A stretch of DNA of 64,000 bases from Dysidea avara (taxonomy: Eukaryota > Porifera > Demospongiae > Dictyoceratida > Dysideidae), in assembly GCF_963678975.1 (NCBI RefSeq), contig NC_089276.1, positions 27,175,555-27,239,554 of the forward strand, given 5' to 3'. This document shows positions 1,823 to 28,336 of this stretch, piece after piece. The notes beneath the pieces were generated by a model. The model had not been told where the DNA came from, ran no database searches, and saw only the letters and a list, made by a program, of their open reading frames with translations. The position numbers and the translations under genes were made by a program. The first letter of the stretch is position 1. Every line of letters begins with the position of its first letter.

Positions 1823-2169
1823 GGAGGTTATGGCAAGACAATATCACATACAAGATCATTATAGAAGCCTGATCAGTGAACTTCAGGTTGACCCAATCCT
1901 GCCGTACTTGAAGGATCTAAAATGGCTGACCACAGATGAATATGAAACTCTCATCTCACCAATGATGAACCGTCGACAGAAAGCTGAGAAGATTTTATTA
2001 CTTCAGCCGAGGAAGACAATAGGAAATTACAATGGGGAGGAGATACTTGTAAAGAGCATTATTTGGAGTGGCCAGGAAAAATTAGTACGGCAGTTGGGAT
2101 GTACTGATGAAGATATACGTCTGATAAAAGGGCAGTGTCCTTACCGTATTGAGCCTGACCATCCTCAAA
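1823..2169 (+). other. Exon 1: CARD
   Basis: The acceptor TTTAG ends at 1822 and the donor GTGAGC starts at 2170. ATG at 1830 begins a 113-residue segment. Residues such as LISELQ, DPILPYL, LTTDEYETL and KAEKILLLQP match the helix pattern of caspase-recruitment domains (alternating Leu/Ile with a helix-3 'T-x-x-E-x-E' type block). A chain continuing upstream cannot be excluded, but the CARD is complete from this Met. Confidence 0.85.
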
Positions 2170-5100
2170 GTGAGCTTGTTATTATTCTAACAGTTATTTA
2201 AGTAGAGTTTGTTACGTTAGTGCTTAAATTGCTAGAATGGAGTTACCAACAATTCTGGTATATAATGAACAGTACATTTAAACAGTATTTGGGGACTGGG
2301 ACATTCCCTTTCTTATAGAACACCTTGGGTTGTAGATATCTGTATACCTAAGCACAGTAGTTCCAAGTCAGTATAATAGTAATACATCTCGTATGTGTAG
2401 TGTGTATATGCAGTTTCATGTGCTATTGCTCAGTAGTGGATGTTGTGTTACAACAGGAAGAGGTATTTATTAATGTTATAAAGTTATTTATGTCAACATT
2501 GGTTGCTATGGAACATTAATGGAGTACAAATGTTTAAAAGTAAGTACATGTAGGCATATGTCTACTTATGTAGTTGTGCTTACTCGTATGAATCCCTTAG
2601 CCAACACTTTCTCTCAGATGTACTGCTATTGAACTCATACGTGGTCAATAGTATACACCTCTTCTACCCAGTCAGTAGAAATACGCGTTGTACATTACAT
2701 ATTATTGGTATGTACCATGAAACCACCTAACTTCAAAGCCAAATTCCAGGGTACATATCTTATAAACCCTGGCTGGCCATGGTACATTTAAGTTAAACCA
2801 TGGCTGGCTATGGTACATTTAAAATAAACCATGGCTGGCCATGATACATTTAAATGTACCATGGCCTTGATATATCTGATGAGGTAACATTGTTTGTTTT
2901 TATAAGAATCCTGGCAGTATTCGATTGTGGGAGTTTATTATTACTCACGTGATGAAAACCATGAACCCGATTTTGCATTCTACAGCACTCATACGAAGGC
3001 GATTCGACACCCTTACAACCCTATGAGTTGACAAACGGAAGTTTAAGGTAAGAACTAGTGTCATGGTTAATTTACAATCGCGTGTCCGCGTGTTTGATTA
3101 CGTACCACGCCCATTTTTCGTATATCACGAGGTAACCACTCTACAGCAAAGCTTACCCCTCTAGATGTTTAGAAAACATTGTAAACAGTGGTTAAACGAT
3201 GTAGCAACTTTGAAACACTTGTTAAATCACAAAATTGAGTGTTTCCGTGATATTCATAGGATTTTCCCCGTTTATGGTAACAAACGTAACTGCAACGTTA
3301 CTTGCTGCTGACCCATAATCGAATTTTACAAGACTCTCTATATAATAAATCCAGCGGGTTGCCTCATATTGGCTTGGGTGATTAGTCGCCCACCACAGTA
3401 GGCTATTAGCCTACATGGTACATATCAGTTGTATCACGTGCCCTCGTGATTTGCCTGATATGTACACCCACGCTCTCGGGCCTAACGGCCCTCGAGCTTG
3501 GGTGTACATATCAGGCAAATCACTCGGGCACATGATACAACTATTACATGTAACCTCTTTGAGCAGGCATGATAAAAAATGTTTGTCATGCTGCTTCACT
3601 TACTCATTTCCTTTACTATGGAGTTGGGTGTTGATTTCTACAAACCACAAACTTAGAAAGTGCAGCTGCAGCAGCAGTAGCAGTAGTATGCAATAATTTT
3701 GGTAGCATAGCCAGTTAGGATCTATCTGGGGTATCATCTAACTAGGTCTGTGACACTTGAAGAGATCTTATTGTACTTATCATAAACAGAATGAGGAGAT
3801 AGTTTTCTGGTTAACCAAGGCTTACTTGCTAGAGTTTTAATAGAATACACTTATAAGCCTTTCTTCTCATGCGGTCTTCTTGTGATCACGAGACATGAGT
3901 ATGGGGAGATACACATACTGTCATGCTCACATCAAACACTTAAACTTTACAAAGAAAATTTCAACTCTTTCACTGCTTCAACTGGATTTATCCAGTTTGA
4001 CACTATAATAGGCACTCGACCACAATTCTAATGCGCTACCACTTCTATCATGCGTTTTATAGTACAATGCACTTACCCTGAAATGTGCACACCCACAGAG
4101 GTCCCAGAAATTGGGATAACCGGATCCTTCATGCACTATTGCGGGTTTGTTACGTAATACCGCAAAGTTTTCTTGTTAGAAAAGATGACTGTTATGCATC
4201 CTCGAGTTGATAGTCATCTTTTGAAGTCCACTGGATTGTTATTGATAGACTAAGACAGCCAAGGATCACTGTCAGCTGTTTTTCAGAAGTGTGGTGTGAT
4301 TCGCTCATGTGCATATACGCATGCGTGATACAAGATTTGGGATAAATCTCGAAGAAACCAGCCAAAGAAACAATCTCCCAGTAAGGAGACTGTTTAGAAT
4401 AGCTGTATGGACTGTAATACTTACCTGTAGCAATTTTATTTGTAACTGAATACTTATTTAAGCTGCATTACCATATTTTTCAGTTTTGTAGTCTTGTAAT
4501 TACTTAGCAGTTTTATTTACATAAACAAAAACAACCTAGTCGAGGTCCTTAGTCTATAGCGATTACTTAGAGGTATGGTAACTAAGTGCTATAGCGTACA
4601 GTTAAGCTTGTATAGTGCAATTTGTAGCAGACTGTATGGTCTGCCGGAAAATTCAGCAGTGAAAGGGGTATTACAAAGAGTTACACCTGGTTTAGGTACT
4701 TGATTACTTACTTATGCACATATTAAAAAAATGATCTGATGTACTTTACTGCTATGTAAAAAAGTGTTCTCGGTCTTAATTATGACATTGTAAACATGAC
4801 TTTTCAATTAGAGTCTTTTGTTATTAGTGTGTGTTCTATTAGAGCAATGTTTTGCTCTTATTTCATTTTGTAGATGTATTGTCCTTTTGAATTATTGGAG
4901 GAGCAGTGTATAAACCCATGTGGTAATGTGTTATATGGCCCAAGAAGGCAGTACGCCACACCAGTGTGTTATTAACAGAAAGAATGATAGTGCAATTTTC
5001 ATGTATAAGTAGCTCCGTGTAGCTTTTATGAACTGAATCAAATTTTACTATGGAAGTGTCCTCCACCTTCAGTAGTCCACCTACTACTTACTTTAAGCAT

Positions 5101-8100
5101 ACAATTAATGCTCCAGGCATTCTCAAGATATGAGTTTTCATAAGTTAGCTTAATTTTCTTTAAGTTATCCTTTTCCATCTTTTTCTTCATTTTGCATCAG
5201 AGGTGATACAATAAACAGTTGTAGAGTTATTAATGATTATTTACAGAAAATAAAGTCATGCCTACAGGGTAAACTGCTCATAAGAAGAAGCTGAAAATCG
5301 CTATGTGGATAGATTAACTATTGAATGTCAAGCCCTTTGTGGAATAAAAGCAGCAACTACAGACTGATATATAATGAAAACATGAGCACATGTAGCAGCT
5401 TGGTCACAATTAAGGTTTGTAAAAACAAATTACAGGCAAACAGTTAATAGTGACAAACTGAAAACTGCTGTGTAGGTAGTCTATCCATTATAACTTTAGC
5501 ATTTCGAAACTTTGTGGTTGTAAACAGTGAATCGGAGTAGCTAAACAATTTTTACAGAGTAGGTTCAATATTTTCTAACAGAATATATAGTCATTGGCAA
5601 GATTTGGTTTAAAATTTCCTAATAAAACATCACATTGGGTTCAGTGTTGACCAACCGAGAAAGCACATTAGAAGAGGTTCAACCTGTTAGGTGAATCTGA
5701 AGAAGCTTTAAACATGACATCAATAGAACTTCTATATACAGTACTAGTACAGCCAAGCTATGAAAAAAGACCCAAGATGAAAAAAGAAAGGTGGCAGTCA
5801 AGAAATACTCATTGCAACCATTTCTTGGCTGCCACCTTCAAGCTTACAACCTTGGTTGTTTATTTAAAGAGATACACACAATTTGGATGCTTTGGTATAA
5901 ATATCACTTCTTTGTATGTGTAAAGCCTTAACTGTGTTAATGCCAACTTTTATCATGTACTGTATGTAATAGTTATACCATGGCTGCGAGGGATTTTGCT
6001 GATATATACACCCAAAGCCCGAGGGCCGCAGGCCCAAGGGCTGCGGATGTATATGTCAGCAAAATCCCAAGCAGCCATGGTACAAGTGATATATATCACT
6101 TGGGGCTTACTCACCTAATAGGTGAAAGAACTAATGAGAACTCATCCCATTTGTTTTATACAGTAGCATCTGAAGATCAATTGTGGTTTTAATAGCGTGG
6201 GCTAATAGCCATCAAAACGTTGTCCATACGTTAAAACGTCATTAATACGTTACTATGCTTCAACACGCAATGTTAGAAAATTTGCGACTGTGGGATGGAG
6301 TTTATATTGTTATCATTTTGGTACTAAGTTAAGCCAACTAACTTCGCTATTGGGACAGTAAGTAAGTTATTATATTAAGTACTTAGAACTGTAAGTTACT
6401 AACCTATTTCAATGTAGCAGTAGTAGCTTTGCTGTTCCATGGACTGTTCAAAGGCTGATACGCGGTGGGTAGAAATACGCATCCACAATTGCCCAAACAG
6501 TTGTTTTTTGCCTTCATTATCCTTTAGTAACAACCAACTACTCTATCTTAGCCTATGTACTAAGCTTAGCAACCTCTACAAAACCGAGTCCCACAATTCA
6601 AAGCTCTATGTCGCTCAATATAACGAGTCAAAGTGCATCGATTCTTTGGTATCAAAGTCATTGGCAAACCGCTTTCCCATGATATTGCCCGGGCAATATG
6701 CGAGTTAACCACCGAGCGGTGCCTTTGAACGCCCACACTAAAGTGGTATATTAATCCCTATTTTAGTCATGAGTGAAGTACGGATTAAATGTCCACTAGT
6801 ATATCTTCTGGCGTAGGCGACCTCCCTTGTTTCACTACTTTTTATTACTTTGATCCCTAATCAAAAATTAAAAAAAATTATTCTTAATACATGTGTATTT
6901 GTTGGGTGAATTTTCTATTAGGATGGCTGTTCTATTAGAGTATTTGATCATGCATTCTAAGCACATTAGGCTTTTGTCAGTTCACTGGGTACTAAGATCA
7001 TTCATTATGTTTATTGTAGCACTACCTGGTTTCTATGGATACACTCCACGAAGTCCTACTGTGATGAGTCCCACTGTAATGCAGTATCATCAAATTCCTG
7101 CCACCCCAACAAGTCCACTACTAACTCCTGGTGCTATGATGAACTATGGACCAAATGCAAGTGGAAGGAACCAAGGTGGTAAGCTAATATATCACATTTA
7201 TCTATAGTAAGTGTTGTACCATAAAATGAAAGGTTTCAAATGAAAGTTTTTTTTTCAATTTGCTAAACTCGCCCAACTTTTGTATATTAATAGCCGTAAT
7301 GGAATCTAAAATATTAGGGTGCTGTATTTTCCAGTTTCTATTTCAAAGTGGATCTTATATAGTGACCTATCAAAGCTCATGTCAGTGACCCTAAGAATCA
7401 GAGCAGCTTTTATTGATCCCAGAGTCTTTTGAATGCTACAAGGATGTATCATTCCATCTTGCTGTTTGTTCACTAGGGCCTGGGCCTGCTATGATCCTAT
7501 ACTGTCACAATGATGGTCCTGCATCTGATTATGTACTAACACTATCTGACTTCTTGAGTACTTGTGGAGTGGACTGTGACATTGACCAGTACCACGCTAA
7601 CGACAACATCACTGACTGGGATCAGTGGTGGGAACGGAGGATAAATAATGTTATTGCAAGGAATGGGTTTATTTTATTTGCTGTAGCATACAATGACCAT
7701 TTGAAAAAGTGTATGGCTGAGTCAAGAAGAATCCAAATGAGTCATGGGTTTATTAGTGGGTTGTTGTTGAGTAGTATGATAGGAGATCGTAACAAGACTA
7801 GCCGTATTATCCCAGTGTTTCTTGATGCTGTCAATGGTGCACTCCTTCCTGGTGTTCTCTCTCAGAGGACTAGCTACTGTGCTAATATTAGAGTCTTGGA
7901 GACTACTGTAAATGGTCCTGGCAGTGCTGAAATTTTGGATATGCCTGGATTGGAGTCTCTTAGAAGTTTGGTGTTCAGACTTACTGGACAAGTAGAAGTG
8001 GAAAAACCAATGGTTGCTCCTGTGCCACAAAATTCACGTGAGTTCATATCTGTTTACTAAAAGCACATACTAGTAATAGAGTTTGTTGTTGGCGGAGGGT

Positions 8101-9189
8101 ATACCGTCTAGCCAGAAATTTTTGCGTGACAATTTTCACAGATTCTGCAAGTAATCATGGCTTTGTGAAAATACAATCGTGAAGTACTATTGTGTACTTT
8201 AGCAAAGCATTCATGAACATTTTCTAGACGTTCATGAATTAAAAATTGTGAAAATTAAAAGGTTTCCTCCCTTGAAACTTTCCTGCTAAACAGTAGTACA
8301 GTGTATGTATACATTGAGCTGAACCCTCAAAAACAAATAATTCCAGGACTGCTAGGCAAACGAAAATAAAGGTTTTGACAATTTAAAAAATCTATATCTA
8401 ACTGCCTGTGTTTTCTTGTTTCTAATATTGTATTTGATGTTCTAACTCATTTCAATGTCTGACAACCAATCAAAATTTGCACCATATATTTCCTAGAGAA
8501 GCTATAGGAGTGAACCACCGCCTTTTAAAAAAAATTGTACTAGACCCAATCCACACATGTATGCTTTAATACTGTCACCACTAATTCTGTTATTGGCTAA
8601 AATGTTATTTTTCTGAAGAAAATCCACTTTTTACAATTTTACCTGTTTTCTGAGGGCTCAGCTCAACTTGTAGTTTCTGTCCACTCTTTAAGCCTTCCTT
8701 TACCAGTAAATCATTTACTGGTATTAACAGTTATGCCCTATGTTTGAGAACACTTTGTTAGCACCTACAATTAAAAATGATAGTAGTAATTGCATATTAA
8801 CTTTTTCTAAAGCTGAAGTTCATGTTTGAGGTTGTCATATTTATGTCATTCATATTCCCTCATTATTCAGTGATGTTTTGTCATATTTAATAGGTTCTTA
8901 CACTCTACCAGTACAAGAAAATGAAAACCAGATCCCTGCTGGTGCTTCAGCCAAACCAGTTGCCTTCATCACAGACGATCAATTACGAAACCTTGCTGGT
9001 CAAATTAATCGAAAGAATAAAGGTTGGAGACCACTAGCTTTGCAACTTGAAGTCAAATATGCAGACATCACTAAAATTGGAAAGAGCTGTGAAGAGGACA
9101 AACAAGCTTATGAGATGCTTAAGTTGTGGAGAGGCACTAACTCTACAATCACTATCAATGACTTGCAAGAAATAATAAATAAATTGTAG
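1823..9189 (+). CDS. CARD-SEFIR-like-Death domain adaptor gene (4 exons)
   Basis: Proposed exons are 1823-2169 (ATG at 1830), 7020-7178, 7477-8037 and 8894-9189. All three introns are phase 1 with GT-AG ends, and the joined frame is exactly 452 codons including TAG. Domains in order: CARD (about residues 8-95), a Pro/Thr/Tyr-rich linker (about 114-166), a SEFIR/TIR-like domain (about 168-330) and a Death domain (about 379-450). There is no signal peptide, membrane segment or catalytic domain, so it looks like a cytosolic adaptor bringing together CARD, SEFIR and Death-domain partners, as MyD88 (Death-TIR) or Act1 (SEFIR) do in other animals. The function is inferred from domains only. The 4.85 kb first intron is the weakest link: phase fits, but transcript proof is lacking. 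An upstream exon is possible because an acceptor precedes the ATG. Confidence 0.8.
2170..2700. other. Intron 1, 5' part
   Basis: Intronic stretch following the CARD exon donor. I see no exon or named repeat in it. Confidence 0.4.
2755..2865. repeat. Short tandem repeat of about 33 bp
   Basis: Three imperfect copies of a unit containing CCATGGCTGGC...TGGTACATTTAAA lie head to tail. The last copy is followed by its own inverse (ACATTTAAATGTACCATGG), which makes a small hairpin. Confidence 0.75.
2907..3047 (+). other. Exon-like segment inside intron 1
   Basis: An acceptor-like TTATAAG precedes 2907 and a strong donor GTAAGA starts at 3048. Joined in phase 1 to the CARD exon it stays open for about 43 codons and then meets TGA. 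It also holds a CACGTG box and a CpG-richer patch. It could be an alternative 3' coding exon, a non-coding first exon of a CARD-less transcript, or nothing. Confidence 0.3.
3413..3551. repeat. Palindromic element, GC-rich core
   Basis: A near-perfect inverted repeat centred at about 3483. Outer ends are ACATG/CATGT, and the arms carry TGATATGTACACCCA and a GGGCC...GGCCC core. It shares its core with the hairpin at 5977-6081. The frame open across it on both strands is a by-product of the palindrome. Confidence 0.85.
3552..5740. other. Intron 1, middle part
   Basis: No exon I can support. A minus-strand open frame at 4863-5066 has no splice context or recognisable domain. One copy of the dispersed CTCTATTAGAG-type motif lies at 4832-4845. 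Confidence 0.35.
5748..5875. repeat. Partial copy of the AGCCAAGCT inverted-repeat family
   Basis: CAGCCAAGCTATGAAAAAA followed by an inner inverted pair (GGTGGCAGTCAAGAAAT / ATTTCTTGGCTGCCACC) matches elements at 16761-16993, 40310-40404 and 41849-41965. The distal end is not preserved. Confidence 0.6.
5977..6081. repeat. Palindromic element, GC-rich core (second copy)
   Basis: An inverted repeat with ends ACCATGGCTGC/GCAGCCATGGT. Its core GATATATACACCCAAAGCCC runs into GAGGGCC and its inverse. It is the same family as 3413-3551. Confidence 0.85.
6082..7019. other. Intron 1, 3' part
   Basis: Near 6200-6260 there is a cluster of ACGTT-containing words. Short plus-strand frames at 6439-6708 and just upstream of exon 2 lack splice support or homology; the frame running into exon 2 is intron read-through. 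A dispersed-motif copy is at 6926-6942. Confidence 0.35.
7020..7178 (+). other. Exon 2: Pro-rich linker
   Basis: The acceptor TTGTAG ends at 7019 and the donor GTAAGC starts at 7179. It encodes about 53 residues rich in Pro, Ser, Thr, Tyr and Met (for example TPTSPLLTPG), with no fold expected. It contains repeated SPT and TP/SP motifs that could be proline-directed phosphorylation sites (inference). Phase 1 on both sides makes it a symmetrical exon that can be skipped without shifting the frame. Confidence 0.8.
7477..8037 (+). other. Exon 3: SEFIR/TIR-like domain
   Basis: The acceptor ACTAG ends at 7476 and the donor GTGAGT starts at 8038. It starts with the beta-A strand AMILYCHND, followed by LSDFLSTCGVDCDIDQYH, then DWDQWWERRI, a hydrophobic strand GFILFAVAY, and later RIIPVFLDA and an LPGVL segment. 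The 'D-Q-Y ... D-W-x-x-W ... I' pattern is typical of SEFIR domains, including the bacterial-type ones, more than of classical TIR domains. No TIR NADase catalytic Glu context was recognised. Confidence 0.75.
8894..9189 (+). other. Exon 4: C-terminal Death domain and stop
   Basis: The acceptor AATAG ends at 8893 and the stop TAG is at 9187-9189. After a 24-residue linker come TDDQLRNLAGQI, GWRPLALQLEVKYADI and ILKLW-type helices ending in TINDLQEIINKL, the usual six-helix Death-domain pattern with the conserved Trp in helix 3 (GWRPLA). The protein ends right after helix 6. No AATAAA is visible close to the stop. Confidence 0.88.
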
Positions 9190-16171: not shown

Positions 16172-19100
16172 CTAAATGTGGTAAGTAATATTATGTAACT
16201 TGAAATGTACACTACGACACATAGTAAGGTGTCGAGAGGCTAGCATGCCACACCAATGTAGTATTAATTACTTTGTTAAAACCCTTTGAAACCTGAAAAG
16301 TGTGTTTTTGTGGTATTTTTAGATGTTAGATTATTTACTGTATGCTCTAAATTCTTCTCCACAGTTACAGGGAAACTTTTTAAGCTGTGGAAGTTACAGT
16401 GCTGTGAAGTTATCAAAAAGAGTTTCATGGGTCACCTGTTGTTAACAGGAAGAACAAAATGCAATACACATATGTGTGACTCTGTATGTGCTCCTTTATC
16501 CTAATGATCATGAGTTGTGGACAGGATACATGCAAATTTGAATGAAATTGAAAATATGAATGACTAAAGTTTTGGGTTTTGTCTACATTCTTTCTCCTTT
16601 TTACACACTTTGCAAAACCATCATGACACAAATATGTTATCAAGTTATTTCTGAAATTTAGCACACATCAAGGGGACCCAAAAGCAAACGTCAGTACCAA
16701 TTTTTGTGCAAATCTGATAAACATTCAGAGTTATGTGTGTAAAAAAGCTGTTGTCATGATAGCCAAGCTGTGAAAAAGGGTGTATCCCCAAAAAGACGGG
16801 ATCAAAAAAGTTTCAAAATCAAAAGTGACAGCCAAGAAAAGGCAGCAATGATGCTAACGCTGATCGTTTTTAATGATGAGTGTTATCATTAAAATGATCA
16901 ATCACCATTGGACCCATTTCTTGGTTGCCACCATTAATTTCACAACCTTTCACCTTGGCTTTATTGGAGGATGCACCGTTTCATAGCTTGGCTTAGCCAG
17001 CAATACGATAAAAACTTGCATATTATTTCATTGTAGCATGTGAAATTTTACAATTTTTTCTAAACATCATTGTTCTCAATACACATGCTTGTGTGAACAA
17101 GTTATCATGTTTTCAATTATGCCCTATTAGGGTAACTGCAATCATATGAGCAGAGCTTCAATTTCCAAGTTAAACTTGCATTTTTTCTTTGATCAGACTT
17201 TTTGATCATACCATTTTCACAAGTCCTTTTTCCTACTCACAAAAGGCAACTACCTTTTAGCTTTTTGTCATACTTTTACGTTGAAAGCCTTATACATGTA
17301 TGTTCAGATGCAACCCACTAAGGCATCAATTAATCAGCAAGAATTGGTTCAAATCATAGAAGTTTGTTGGAAGGAGTTGGAGTTGCTCTGAAGACATTTA
17401 TGAACTTTACCCATGCCTAACCATCTTCCAAGCTTTCATGAAGGAGTGATGCTGGTTTTGGGTGATATTTTTGGATCTGCGTGCCAGTTCAATCATAAAA
17501 GTGTTCATATAAGTGAAGTTGTTCAAACAAATGAGGCCCATTCACGTGTATACTCCAATAGAACATACACGTTCTCTAACAGATCGTTCACCTAATGACG
17601 AAATACACTAATAGAGCAGTCACTTATAACTATTTGGATAATGGATGGAGATTCGGGTAATTGAGTGTACCAGAGTGCTAATTGTCATAAGGTGTTGCTT
17701 GTCTTGTTGGGCAACTCATTGATTGTTACTGACTGACTGACTGACTGACTCACCTATGATTACTGTAAGCAGTACGAAGATGATGATACAGTACCTACTG
17801 GAACAAAGGGCCATAGGAAAAAGCTACTGTACCATGTTTATGAAACAGAAAAGCATTAAGCATGAGTAGAGTAGCATATTTGCAAGGAGAGCCTTGTCTG
17901 CATGGCATGTACATTTGAATGCACAGGGAAAAGTGGATCCCAAGGGGTGACGGTTTACATACTACACAACCAGATGACCTACCTCCTTGTACTCTACCGC
18001 CTCCACCTCCTCTACCTATATAAGGTAAGACATCACATGAGCATATTGGTCTCTGTAATTTACCTTGTCTCTGTTGTTGAGGGGCTTCTGTTCTCTGTTT
18101 GAATGATGGCATTTCTAGAGGTGGACGTGTCTCATTGGGCCTTCCACCACGGTCAGGAACTCTTCCTTGTAGTAAAACCTTATTAAGGATTACAGAAGGG
18201 TTAACAAGAACATATCACAGGACTATTGCAGTACAATTAAAAATATAAGGAATCTGCTCTAAAATTTGGAATATTATACAGTAAGGTAGCAACCGTTTTG
18301 TAGGGAGCGGAGAAAGAAGGGGGTGGGCTGTAGCCCCTGTCAAAAAGATTATGAGGGGCTTAGCTCCCTAAAATTATCCATAGTTATCATCGAGTAATTG
18401 CGCTGATTGTATTACACCAAATAGCTAACTATACAACTACCTGCAATTACAGTGAATCAACGGACTCTATATGAATCAAGATCGAGATTCCCTAATAGAG
18501 CAGTCACCCTAATACAACAGTCAAACTAATAGCAAGAGTTAATAATAAGAGAGGAGAGTGTCTAACGCTGTATAGGCCTGTAATAGATGATTGCGCAGAA
18601 GTTAAACGGCTTCCTTTCCGTGTAACGTACAGGCTTCTAGTATTTGTTCGTTTCCTTACCGCAATTAGTTTAGCCGCACCGTGATGAATCCTCGAGAATA
18701 TTCGAAGACTGAACTAAAGACTGAGCTGTATGTACAGGGAACAGTGCTCCTTCAATTGAAGAATGCTCAAAGGTAGGGTAACATGGCGACGCAGTGAAAA
18801 TTCGAAGCGATACTCCGCCTTTGGTTCAGTGTTTATTGGTTTCTCAGACGCTCTCCCCCAGAGTTATCTTCGAGGTTAACAGCCACACTTCTTTACGCAA
18901 CAGAGCGATGCTCTTCGTGGTGAACTTGAACATCGAATTGAACGCACGCCCTTGTGTCTGGGATAGCCTTTGTGGTTAAATGCGAAAATATACTAGCCAG
19001 TCTGTCGTTACGTGGAAAAGAAGCCGTTTAACTTCTGCGCAATCATCTGTTACAGGACTATACGGCGTTAGACACTCTCCTCTCTATATTATTAACTCTT

Positions 19101-27451: not shown

Positions 27452-27694
27452 GTAGCTAGTCTAGCATTTTTATCTTCCACTGCTCGTGCCCTATGCTTGC
27501 CTTGCCCTTCCAGATTGAGGCCCCATGTGCATTCCTGTGCTACCCACTGCAGCTGCATGTATGGTAAAGCTAAATGTGCTGCCAGGGCTGCTTTGCATCA
27601 TTGATAAAAGTGGACAGTATGCGGAAATATCCGGATTATTTTGTCCATAAATGCGCCGTAAGCGAGACAGATTGCACAAACGTATAAAATAGTT

Positions 27695-28336
27695 ATGTAT
27701 GCAGCAGTGTTAGCTCTGCTCTGTGCAGCTTCATGCTACGCCGGAGAAGGAGAAAGGTACAGACTGAACGTGGTGGAAGATGTCTGGATAGAGAGATCAA
27801 CCAGCAACTATAACTACCATAAGTATTTGATCACGGGTAAACATCCTGGGTACCCAATAAAGCGTTCCTTGGTGAAATTCCAAGATGTTCCAAGCAGCTG
27901 CAGCGTTGTCAACCATGCCATGATGTACCTGTACTACTGGTACTCTCACAAGGCCAGCTGGCAGTCAACAGCTCAAGCCCCATTCATCACCCGTACAATA
28001 CAAGCTCACAGAGTGCTCAAATCTTGGAAGGAGTCTGAAGCTACCACTATTAAGCGAAACCGTTACAATTATTGGAGCAGACCATATCTTGGTTTGGATG
28101 ACACTGATGCCAATGACTGTCCAACAGGAGAAGTGAAGATTTACGCCGATAGACCAATTGGCTTTGTTGAGCTTGATGTGACATCTGCAGTGAGAGATTG
28201 GAAAGCTGGGAAACGAAACTATGGCCTGCTTCTTTGGGCTACTAATGAAAACGTAGATGGCCGTGACACAAGATTTGCTAGCAAAACTGACACTGATCCA
28301 AAGAAGCATCCATACATCATGGTGAACTGTGACTAA
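27695..28336 (+). CDS. Secreted DNRLRE-domain protein (intronless)
   Basis: A single open frame of 213 residues. Residues 1-16 (MYAAVLALLCAASCYA) form a signal peptide with a short hydrophobic core and an A-x-A-like cleavage site. Residues 20-212 match a DNRLRE-type beta-sandwich: an early EDVWIERS strand, KRSLVKFQDVP, a middle LYYWY strand, IYADRPIGFVELDVTSAVRDW, and the family signature GLLLWATNENVDGRDTRFAS followed by HPYIMVNC. DNRLRE/CBM96-type modules are extracellular and often carbohydrate-binding. Ligand is unknown here. Three Cys remain in the mature chain. The start was chosen because the signal peptide begins there. TATAAAA lies only 12 bp upstream, too close to be an ordinary TATA box for this ATG. 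No intron interrupts the domain. Confidence 0.85.
   Translation: MYAAVLALLCAASCYAGEGERYRLNVVEDVWIERSTSNYNYHKYLITGKHPGYPIKRSLVKFQDVPSSCSVVNHAMMYLYYWYSHKASWQSTAQAPFITRTIQAHRVLKSWKESEATTIKRNRYNYWSRPYLGLDDTDANDCPTGEVKIYADRPIGFVELDVTSAVRDWKAGKRNYGLLLWATNENVDGRDTRFASKTDTDPKKHPYIMVNCD

Follow-up and report, generated by a model that had tools for sequence, protein, structure and literature searches.

The window analysed here is a 64,000-nucleotide stretch of the genome of the sponge Dysidea avara (G000:C5:27175555-27239554; the assembly searched has 550.8 Mb in 108 contigs). Near its start lies a gene predicted to join a CARD, a SEFIR domain and a Death domain in one protein. As read from sequence, the CARD-SEFIR-Death order is present twice in tandem, in the window gene and in an upstream gene that looks like its old tandem duplicate. 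Because the order is repeated in this duplicate, it is no accident of a single gene model, and the recurrence supports it more strongly than did the sequence-only reading that had first proposed it. We consider it probable that the locus encodes a soluble cytosolic three-module adaptor, in which the SEFIR domain docks on a SEFIR receptor and the CARD and Death domains recruit death-fold partners, in the manner of Act1 and MyD88.

The window gene is modelled as four exons, with the CARD exon far ahead of the others:

1830..2169, forward strand: exon 1 (coding), CARD, residues 1-113; donor GTGAGC at 2170; a possible acceptor upstream ends at 1822
2170..7019, forward strand: putative intron 1, 4850 nt, phase 1
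7020..7178, forward strand: exon 2, Pro/Ser/Thr-rich linker, 159 nt, 17% Pro, symmetric 1-1
7477..8037, forward strand: exon 3, SEFIR domain, 561 nt, symmetric 1-1, with Pfam, bSEFIR and profile matches
8894..9189, forward strand: exon 4, Death domain and stop codon (TAG), with a Pfam Death match

Splicing exons 1-4 in silico gives an uninterrupted protein of 451 residues through three GT-AG junctions, every one in phase 1, exactly as the sequence-only reading had it. That reading started the gene at 1823, directly after the possible acceptor, whereas the ATG (G at both -3 and +4) stands at 1830. Among all GTs of the window, the three donors rank at the 98.2, 99.3 and 98.7 percentiles by an approximate donor matrix, and the pyrimidine content 5' of the acceptors reaches the 84th-93rd percentile, a weaker signal than that of the donors. 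Two AATAAA motifs (9174 and 9178) directly precede the stop codon. The 221-codon frame that contains the SEFIR exon is longer than any frame in 60 simulated sequences of 64 kb (first-order Markov; the longest frame had 215 codons), which rules it out as a chance open frame. The 143-codon CARD frame is not exceptional, as a frame of that length occurs in 27 of the 60; its length is therefore uninformative, and the reality of the CARD exon rests on homology. Two long palindromic fold-back (inverted-repeat) elements occur in intron 1, at about 3427-3542 and 5963-6095. They are alike (72% over 78 nt in inverted comparison) and are perhaps small mobile elements.

The domains named by the sequence-only reading fared unequally in Pfam. 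Death (PF00531) holds in the whole protein (E-value 8.1e-8, 32.7 bits, over the cut-off of 22.6) and in exon 4 alone (2.8e-7, 31.0 bits). SEFIR (PF08357) passes by exon 3 alone, and barely (7.6e-5, 23.5 bits, cut-off 23), and CARD (PF00619) narrowly misses its own cut-off of 23.9, with 22.6 bits for exon 1 alone (1.1e-4). Exon 2 has a chance-level match (E 1.5). No TIR family is listed for the window protein at the limit of E 10, at which the HMMER filters drop most matches above about 0.1. The Act1/CIKS family has U-box-like and TRAF-binding segments; no U-box is among the Pfam matches of the window protein. NCBIfam gave no match for the three exons at E up to 1. Searched singly against the PDB, the CARD exon has the ASC CARD as its top match, at no better than E 0.018; the SEFIR exon finds no SEFIR (an aldo/keto reductase comes first, at 0.12); and for the Death exon an AAA ATPase (0.045) ranks slightly ahead of IRAK3 (0.054).

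The tandem locus spans about 27163009-27172323 of the same contig, within 13 kb upstream of the window and on the strand of the window gene:

L010:7455-7773 (G000:C5 about 27163009-27163327), forward strand: upstream CARD exon, by homology to the window CARD exon and by Pfam CARD
L009:2649-3206, forward strand: SEFIR a, upstream gene, by homology to the window SEFIR exon
L009:3349-3716, forward strand: Death a, upstream gene, Pfam Death
L009:5423-5986, forward strand: SEFIR b, second cassette, Pfam SEFIR at 32.7 bits
L009:6423-6769, forward strand: Death b, second cassette, Pfam Death

Two SEFIR and Death exon pairs (a and b) lie in the 10 kb upstream of the window, and the upstream CARD exon stands 5 kb ahead of SEFIR a and 14.4 kb upstream of the window CARD exon. 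The upstream CARD, SEFIR a and Death a exons together would encode 414 residues, again with every junction in phase 1; the ATG of the first exon overlaps a sequence resembling a 3' splice site, and the exact start of that exon is uncertain. In 70 kb upstream and in the window, no further copies were found beyond one CARD exon and two SEFIR-Death pairs. The upstream CARD exon scores 24.7 bits, over the PF00619 cut-off, and is 32-33% identical to the window CARD, while the paralog Death exons score 38 and 43 bits in Pfam. Among the 14 matches listed for the window CARD exon in the assembly, the tandem copy (3.2e-10) is followed by C1:62130271 (9.0e-4), which overlaps a match scoring 39.1 bits to the CARD model. 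Another 11 of the 14 have E-values above 0.01, several coinciding with places on the CARD list described below.

Between cassettes a and b, identity is 87% in the SEFIR exon and 65% in Death, with nonsynonymous divergence (dN) well under synonymous divergence (dS): 0.072 and 0.357 for SEFIR, 0.244 and 0.590 for Death. The window gene and cassette a share 43% identity in SEFIR, 32% in CARD and 33% in Death. Here too dN is below dS (CARD 0.631 and 2.396, SEFIR 0.565 and 2.031, dN of Death 0.693), but dS is at or near saturation in all three.

Profiles built from the paralogs outperform single exons in the PDB for SEFIR and Death. The SEFIR profile combines 11 of the 21 SEFIR exons known in the genome (three on C5 and eight of the 18 others, among which are a receptor-like gene and a Death-SEFIR gene). 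It matches five sequences only, at E up to 1: TRAF3IP2 (5.6e-7), two with IL-17RA (5.1e-6), and two annotated ‘Sefir domain protein’ (5y8f, 5y8e). With SEFIR proteins as the only profile matches and no TIR family listed, a TIR domain in place of SEFIR in exon 3 is ruled out. The CARD profile (window and upstream copies) matches five sequences at the same limit, four of CARD9 and one of ASC, all weakly (E 0.009-0.016). The Death profile, built from the three cassette exons (window, a and b), is led by LRDD/PIDD (1.2e-7), with FADD and RIPK1 next, then THOC1, CRADD (0.0017), ankyrins and TNFRSF25, and a handful of chance-level entries close its listing. The 33 PDB matches listed (E up to 1) include neither a MyD88 nor an IRAK chain. 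The nearest known relative of the window Death exon is not settled, as the exon alone and the profile disagree.

Several observations weigh against a three-domain gene of this kind. In the whole-protein Pfam scan, both SEFIR (4.9e-4, 20.8 bits) and CARD (0.002, 18.6 bits) fall under their cut-offs, and the CARD exon alone is also just under, as given above. Pfam matched nothing in SEFIR exon a at E up to 0.1, though SEFIR b, 87% identical to it, scores 32.7 bits. The three domain exons of the window gene are all absent from the lists of the genome-wide CARD, SEFIR and Death family searches, which indicates that these domains have drifted far and that such lists are incomplete. AlphaFold predictions for single exons are too poor for use (mean predicted local distance difference test scores of 45 and 33). 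In a tree of 17 SEFIRs, the window exon joins a and b weakly (52/81). The order of the domains is conserved between the copies, but their spacing is not: the Pro-rich stretch is a separate exon before SEFIR in the window gene, whereas in the upstream gene, where a simple scan found no Pro-rich linker exon, it lies inside the Death exon, between SEFIR and Death. Finally, intron 1 is long at 4.85 kb, and the CARD frame may instead run on to a stop at 2199-2201.

So, is this one gene or two? The alternative is a pair of adjacent genes, a short CARD-only protein ending at 2199-2201 and a SEFIR-Death adaptor starting from an in-frame ATG near 6923 or 7007, that were duplicated as a pair. The CARD frame does stay open for about 10 codons beyond the donor before its stop, the frame of exon 2 is open upstream with in-frame ATGs, and SEFIR-Death arrangements with no CARD listed nearby exist at L022, at C11:18.23 Mb and in cassette b. 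However, the CARD exons of both copies end in consensus-like donors whose phase 1 is the acceptor phase of the exons that follow, and CARD followed by SEFIR-Death has been kept on one strand in both copies despite domain identities of 32-43%. We regard two genes as unlikely, and predict that the CARD exon is spliced onto the rest of the window gene.

The single CARD of the upstream locus raises another arrangement, in which this exon is spliced to either SEFIR-Death a or SEFIR-Death b, producing alternative adaptors that share a CARD and differ in their docking and Death ends. Neither CARD query detected a second CARD between a and b, in one search at E up to 0.05 and in another at E up to 10; all junctions are in phase 1 so that both joins would be in frame, and each cassette has its own stop codon at the end. 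Yet b may own an undetected first exon, and joining to b would require skipping the last exon of a and its polyadenylation site. This arrangement is improbable by our estimate.

Alternatively, assembly through CARD and Death might switch on the SEFIR domain as a TIR-like enzyme or effector, which may be how bacterial SEFIR defence proteins act. Part of the SEFIR exon matches the PADLOC bSEFIR model (4.9e-6, covering exon residues 6-57 only), and the SEFIR profile also matches the ‘Sefir domain protein’ structures, which we take to be bacterial. This sequence match is what the window exon has in common with bacterial SEFIR proteins; unlike them, the window SEFIR belongs to a gene built from exons and is fused there to death-fold domains of animal type. 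No relatives of the SEFIR exon were confirmed in prokaryote and viral contigs. Moreover, no TIR match is listed for the exon, the top profile matches are Act1 and IL-17RA, and the glutamate of the window's WWER motif, whose position we guess to be that of the TIR NADase glutamate, is absent in paralogs L020 (Asn) and L030 (Val). An effector role is thus very improbable, and docking remains the function that we prefer for this domain.

SEFIR, CARD and Death exons are common elsewhere in the genome. The SEFIR model search found at least 18 other places, the three C5 exons not being among them, and the assembly holds at least 127 CARD matches at E up to 0.001 (the best 150 of 331 CARD candidates and the best 150 of 653 Death candidates were scored). 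A co-location table covered 43 of the 150 Death and 36 of the 127 CARD places (one further Death place and two CARD places were entered by hand), the 18 SEFIR places and the three C5 exons, and rows outside the table were compared with the SEFIR places by eye. Among the SEFIR places and the CARD and Death matches listed, the C5 locus is the only one with all three domains within 10 kb. Further CARD-SEFIR-Death genes may exist in this genome, as the CARD and Death lists miss divergent members. For SEFIR L030 (C3:34.50 Mb), a CARD match is listed on its strand at a distance of 28 kb upstream. With the C5 CARD and Death exons as tblastn queries, no CARD or Death exon was found in 14.4 kb around L020 or 8.4 kb around L030, a weak test, since the same queries missed the Pfam-positive Death exons of L019 and L022.

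Other combinations were recovered. At L019 (C3:23.70 Mb) a Death exon precedes SEFIR, and at L022 (C14:10.62 Mb) SEFIR precedes Death with no CARD match listed nearby. The same holds on C11 (18231904 and 18234333), where Death lies 2.4 kb downstream of SEFIR. L016 (C12:25.33 Mb) and L025 (C12:25.82 Mb) encode an FN3-like region, a strongly hydrophobic segment and SEFIR; neither fn3 score (24.2 and 16.1 bits) reaches the cut-off of 25, and both are candidate IL-17-receptor-like genes. Most of the remaining SEFIR places form clusters (C14:2.62-2.84 Mb, C14:10.62-10.75 Mb and C2:51.97-52.29 Mb) that are apparently expanded. Weak TIR_2 matches, all below the cut-off, occur in four other SEFIR proteins (L019, L020, L025 and L026). 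Dense CARD exon clusters were seen at C1:62.0-62.6 Mb and C7:26.0-26.4 Mb. On C10, CARD and Death exons (27281678 and 27282517) lie 0.8 kb apart on one strand, possibly a CRADD-like gene.

The window protein does not resemble a receptor. By a 19-residue hydropathy scan, no transmembrane segment of the kind expected in an IL-17 receptor precedes its SEFIR domain. The maximum is 1.65 in the window protein and 0.94 in the upstream paralog, versus 3.13 in L016 and 2.90 in L025, and with no membrane-like stretch a soluble adaptor is most likely.

Among adaptors, CRADD/RAIDD resembles the window protein in carrying CARD and Death on one molecule, and the CRADD Death domain is among the PDB matches of the Death profile; we take its architecture to be CARD-Death, with no SEFIR domain. 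MyD88 (Death-TIR) is analogous in how it works, pairing a receptor-docking domain with Death, whereas the window protein has no listed TIR, the reverse order and an additional CARD. Act1/CIKS (TRAF3IP2) of non-amniotes is likewise a soluble SEFIR adaptor with a Death domain, and TRAF3IP2 is the top PDB match of the SEFIR profile. Passages of one study describe a Death domain in the Act1 of most non-amniotes, N-terminal to SEFIR and with no CARD mentioned there, whereas the window protein has Death at its C-terminus and CARD at its N-terminus (PMC7190641). In the same genome, the separate Death-SEFIR gene at L019 has the order of non-amniote Act1. As also described there, the C. elegans Act1-like adaptor ACTL-1 acts in a complex with IRAK and MALT1 (PMC7190641), and SEFIR-SEFIR docking through helix alphaC is presented elsewhere as the mechanism for Act1 and IL-17 receptors (PMC4014126).

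Trichoplax, another early-branching animal, is described as having MyD88-like proteins that each pair two such modules, two with TIR and CARD and one with SEFIR and Death. The passages concerned describe no protein with CARD, SEFIR and Death, all of which the window protein joins (PMC6321704). The sequence-only reading treated the modules as mutually foreign, and this was overstated, given Death plus SEFIR adaptors in non-amniotes and Trichoplax and TIR plus CARD in the latter. Its statement that it knew of no described protein with all three in this order agrees with our finding no report of one in open-access PMC text (supplements and animal protein collections lie outside this scope). A Dysidea avara genome study counts 39 CARD, 128 Death and 14 TIR genes, with SEFIR given as one in the text or two in a table, and the relevant passages do not mention the CARD-SEFIR-Death combination (PMC12909245). 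The architecture may already be present, unremarked, in sponge gene annotations.

How could such a gene have been assembled? Exon shuffling, as had been suggested, gains some support. Both gene copies carry one module per exon and have every junction in phase 1. Consensus donors near SEFIR frame ends occur at 10 of the 18 other SEFIR places and at none of the other eight; ten of these 14 donors are phase 1, in paralogs that are not independent. The pattern fits a movable 1-1 SEFIR exon module, the number being illustrative. The uniform junction phases reported earlier stand, but the uniform symmetry of the exons does not, as only exons 2 and 3 are 1-1, the model placing exons 1 and 4 at the two ends of the gene. 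The layout nevertheless makes a clear case for the study of adaptor assembly by exon shuffling.

Two further open frames of the window are unconnected with the adaptor. The frame at 27662-28336 (forward strand, 224 codons) starts like a secretory protein and matches CBM96 (36.1 bits, cut-off 26), and the frame at 17795-18214 (reverse strand) matches, in its first part, DUF2465 at the C-terminal end of that family (40.5 bits, cut-off 30.5).

We infer the splicing, cytosolic location, docking, recruitment and output of the window adaptor as follows. Through its SEFIR domain it would attach either to other SEFIR adaptors or to the SEFIR tail of a receptor in the membrane, of the type with FN3-like, transmembrane and SEFIR segments, and clustering of the receptor would gather the CARD and Death domains. 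The CARD arm would then recruit CARD partners of caspase, BCL10/CARD9 or NLR type and nucleate assemblies with them, and the Death arm would do so with Death partners of FADD/RIPK1/PIDD type. The protein would work as non-amniote Act1 (Death-SEFIR) or MyD88 (Death-TIR) does, with two distinct death-fold arms. That a single adaptor could act as a hub, as was proposed from the sequence, is a reasonable hypothesis. A broader possibility, which we put forward tentatively and think rather doubtful, is an early-animal adaptor from a tandem family that couples SEFIR receptors to both CARD and Death assemblies, with alternative SEFIR-Death cassettes sharing one CARD. If so, a single receptor signal would reach inflammatory and cell-death arms for which vertebrates use separate adaptors (Act1, MyD88, CRADD/FADD).

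For the sponge Amphimedon, passages of one study report that no IL-17 was found, and nonetheless mention an Amphimedon IL-17-domain Pfam entry (PMC8353272). As Dysidea avara is a sponge too, IL-17 may likewise be absent from it. With candidate receptors, a Death-SEFIR gene and SEFIR-Death genes co-occurring in this genome, the idea of a SEFIR pathway that predates, or is independent of, the IL-17 cytokine becomes directly testable. The interaction modules on which animal innate immunity draws are few in kind. Should the three-module protein prove real, the separation of IL-17-type, CARD and Death signalling would be in part not fundamental, and one animal lineage would have wired all three through one adaptor.

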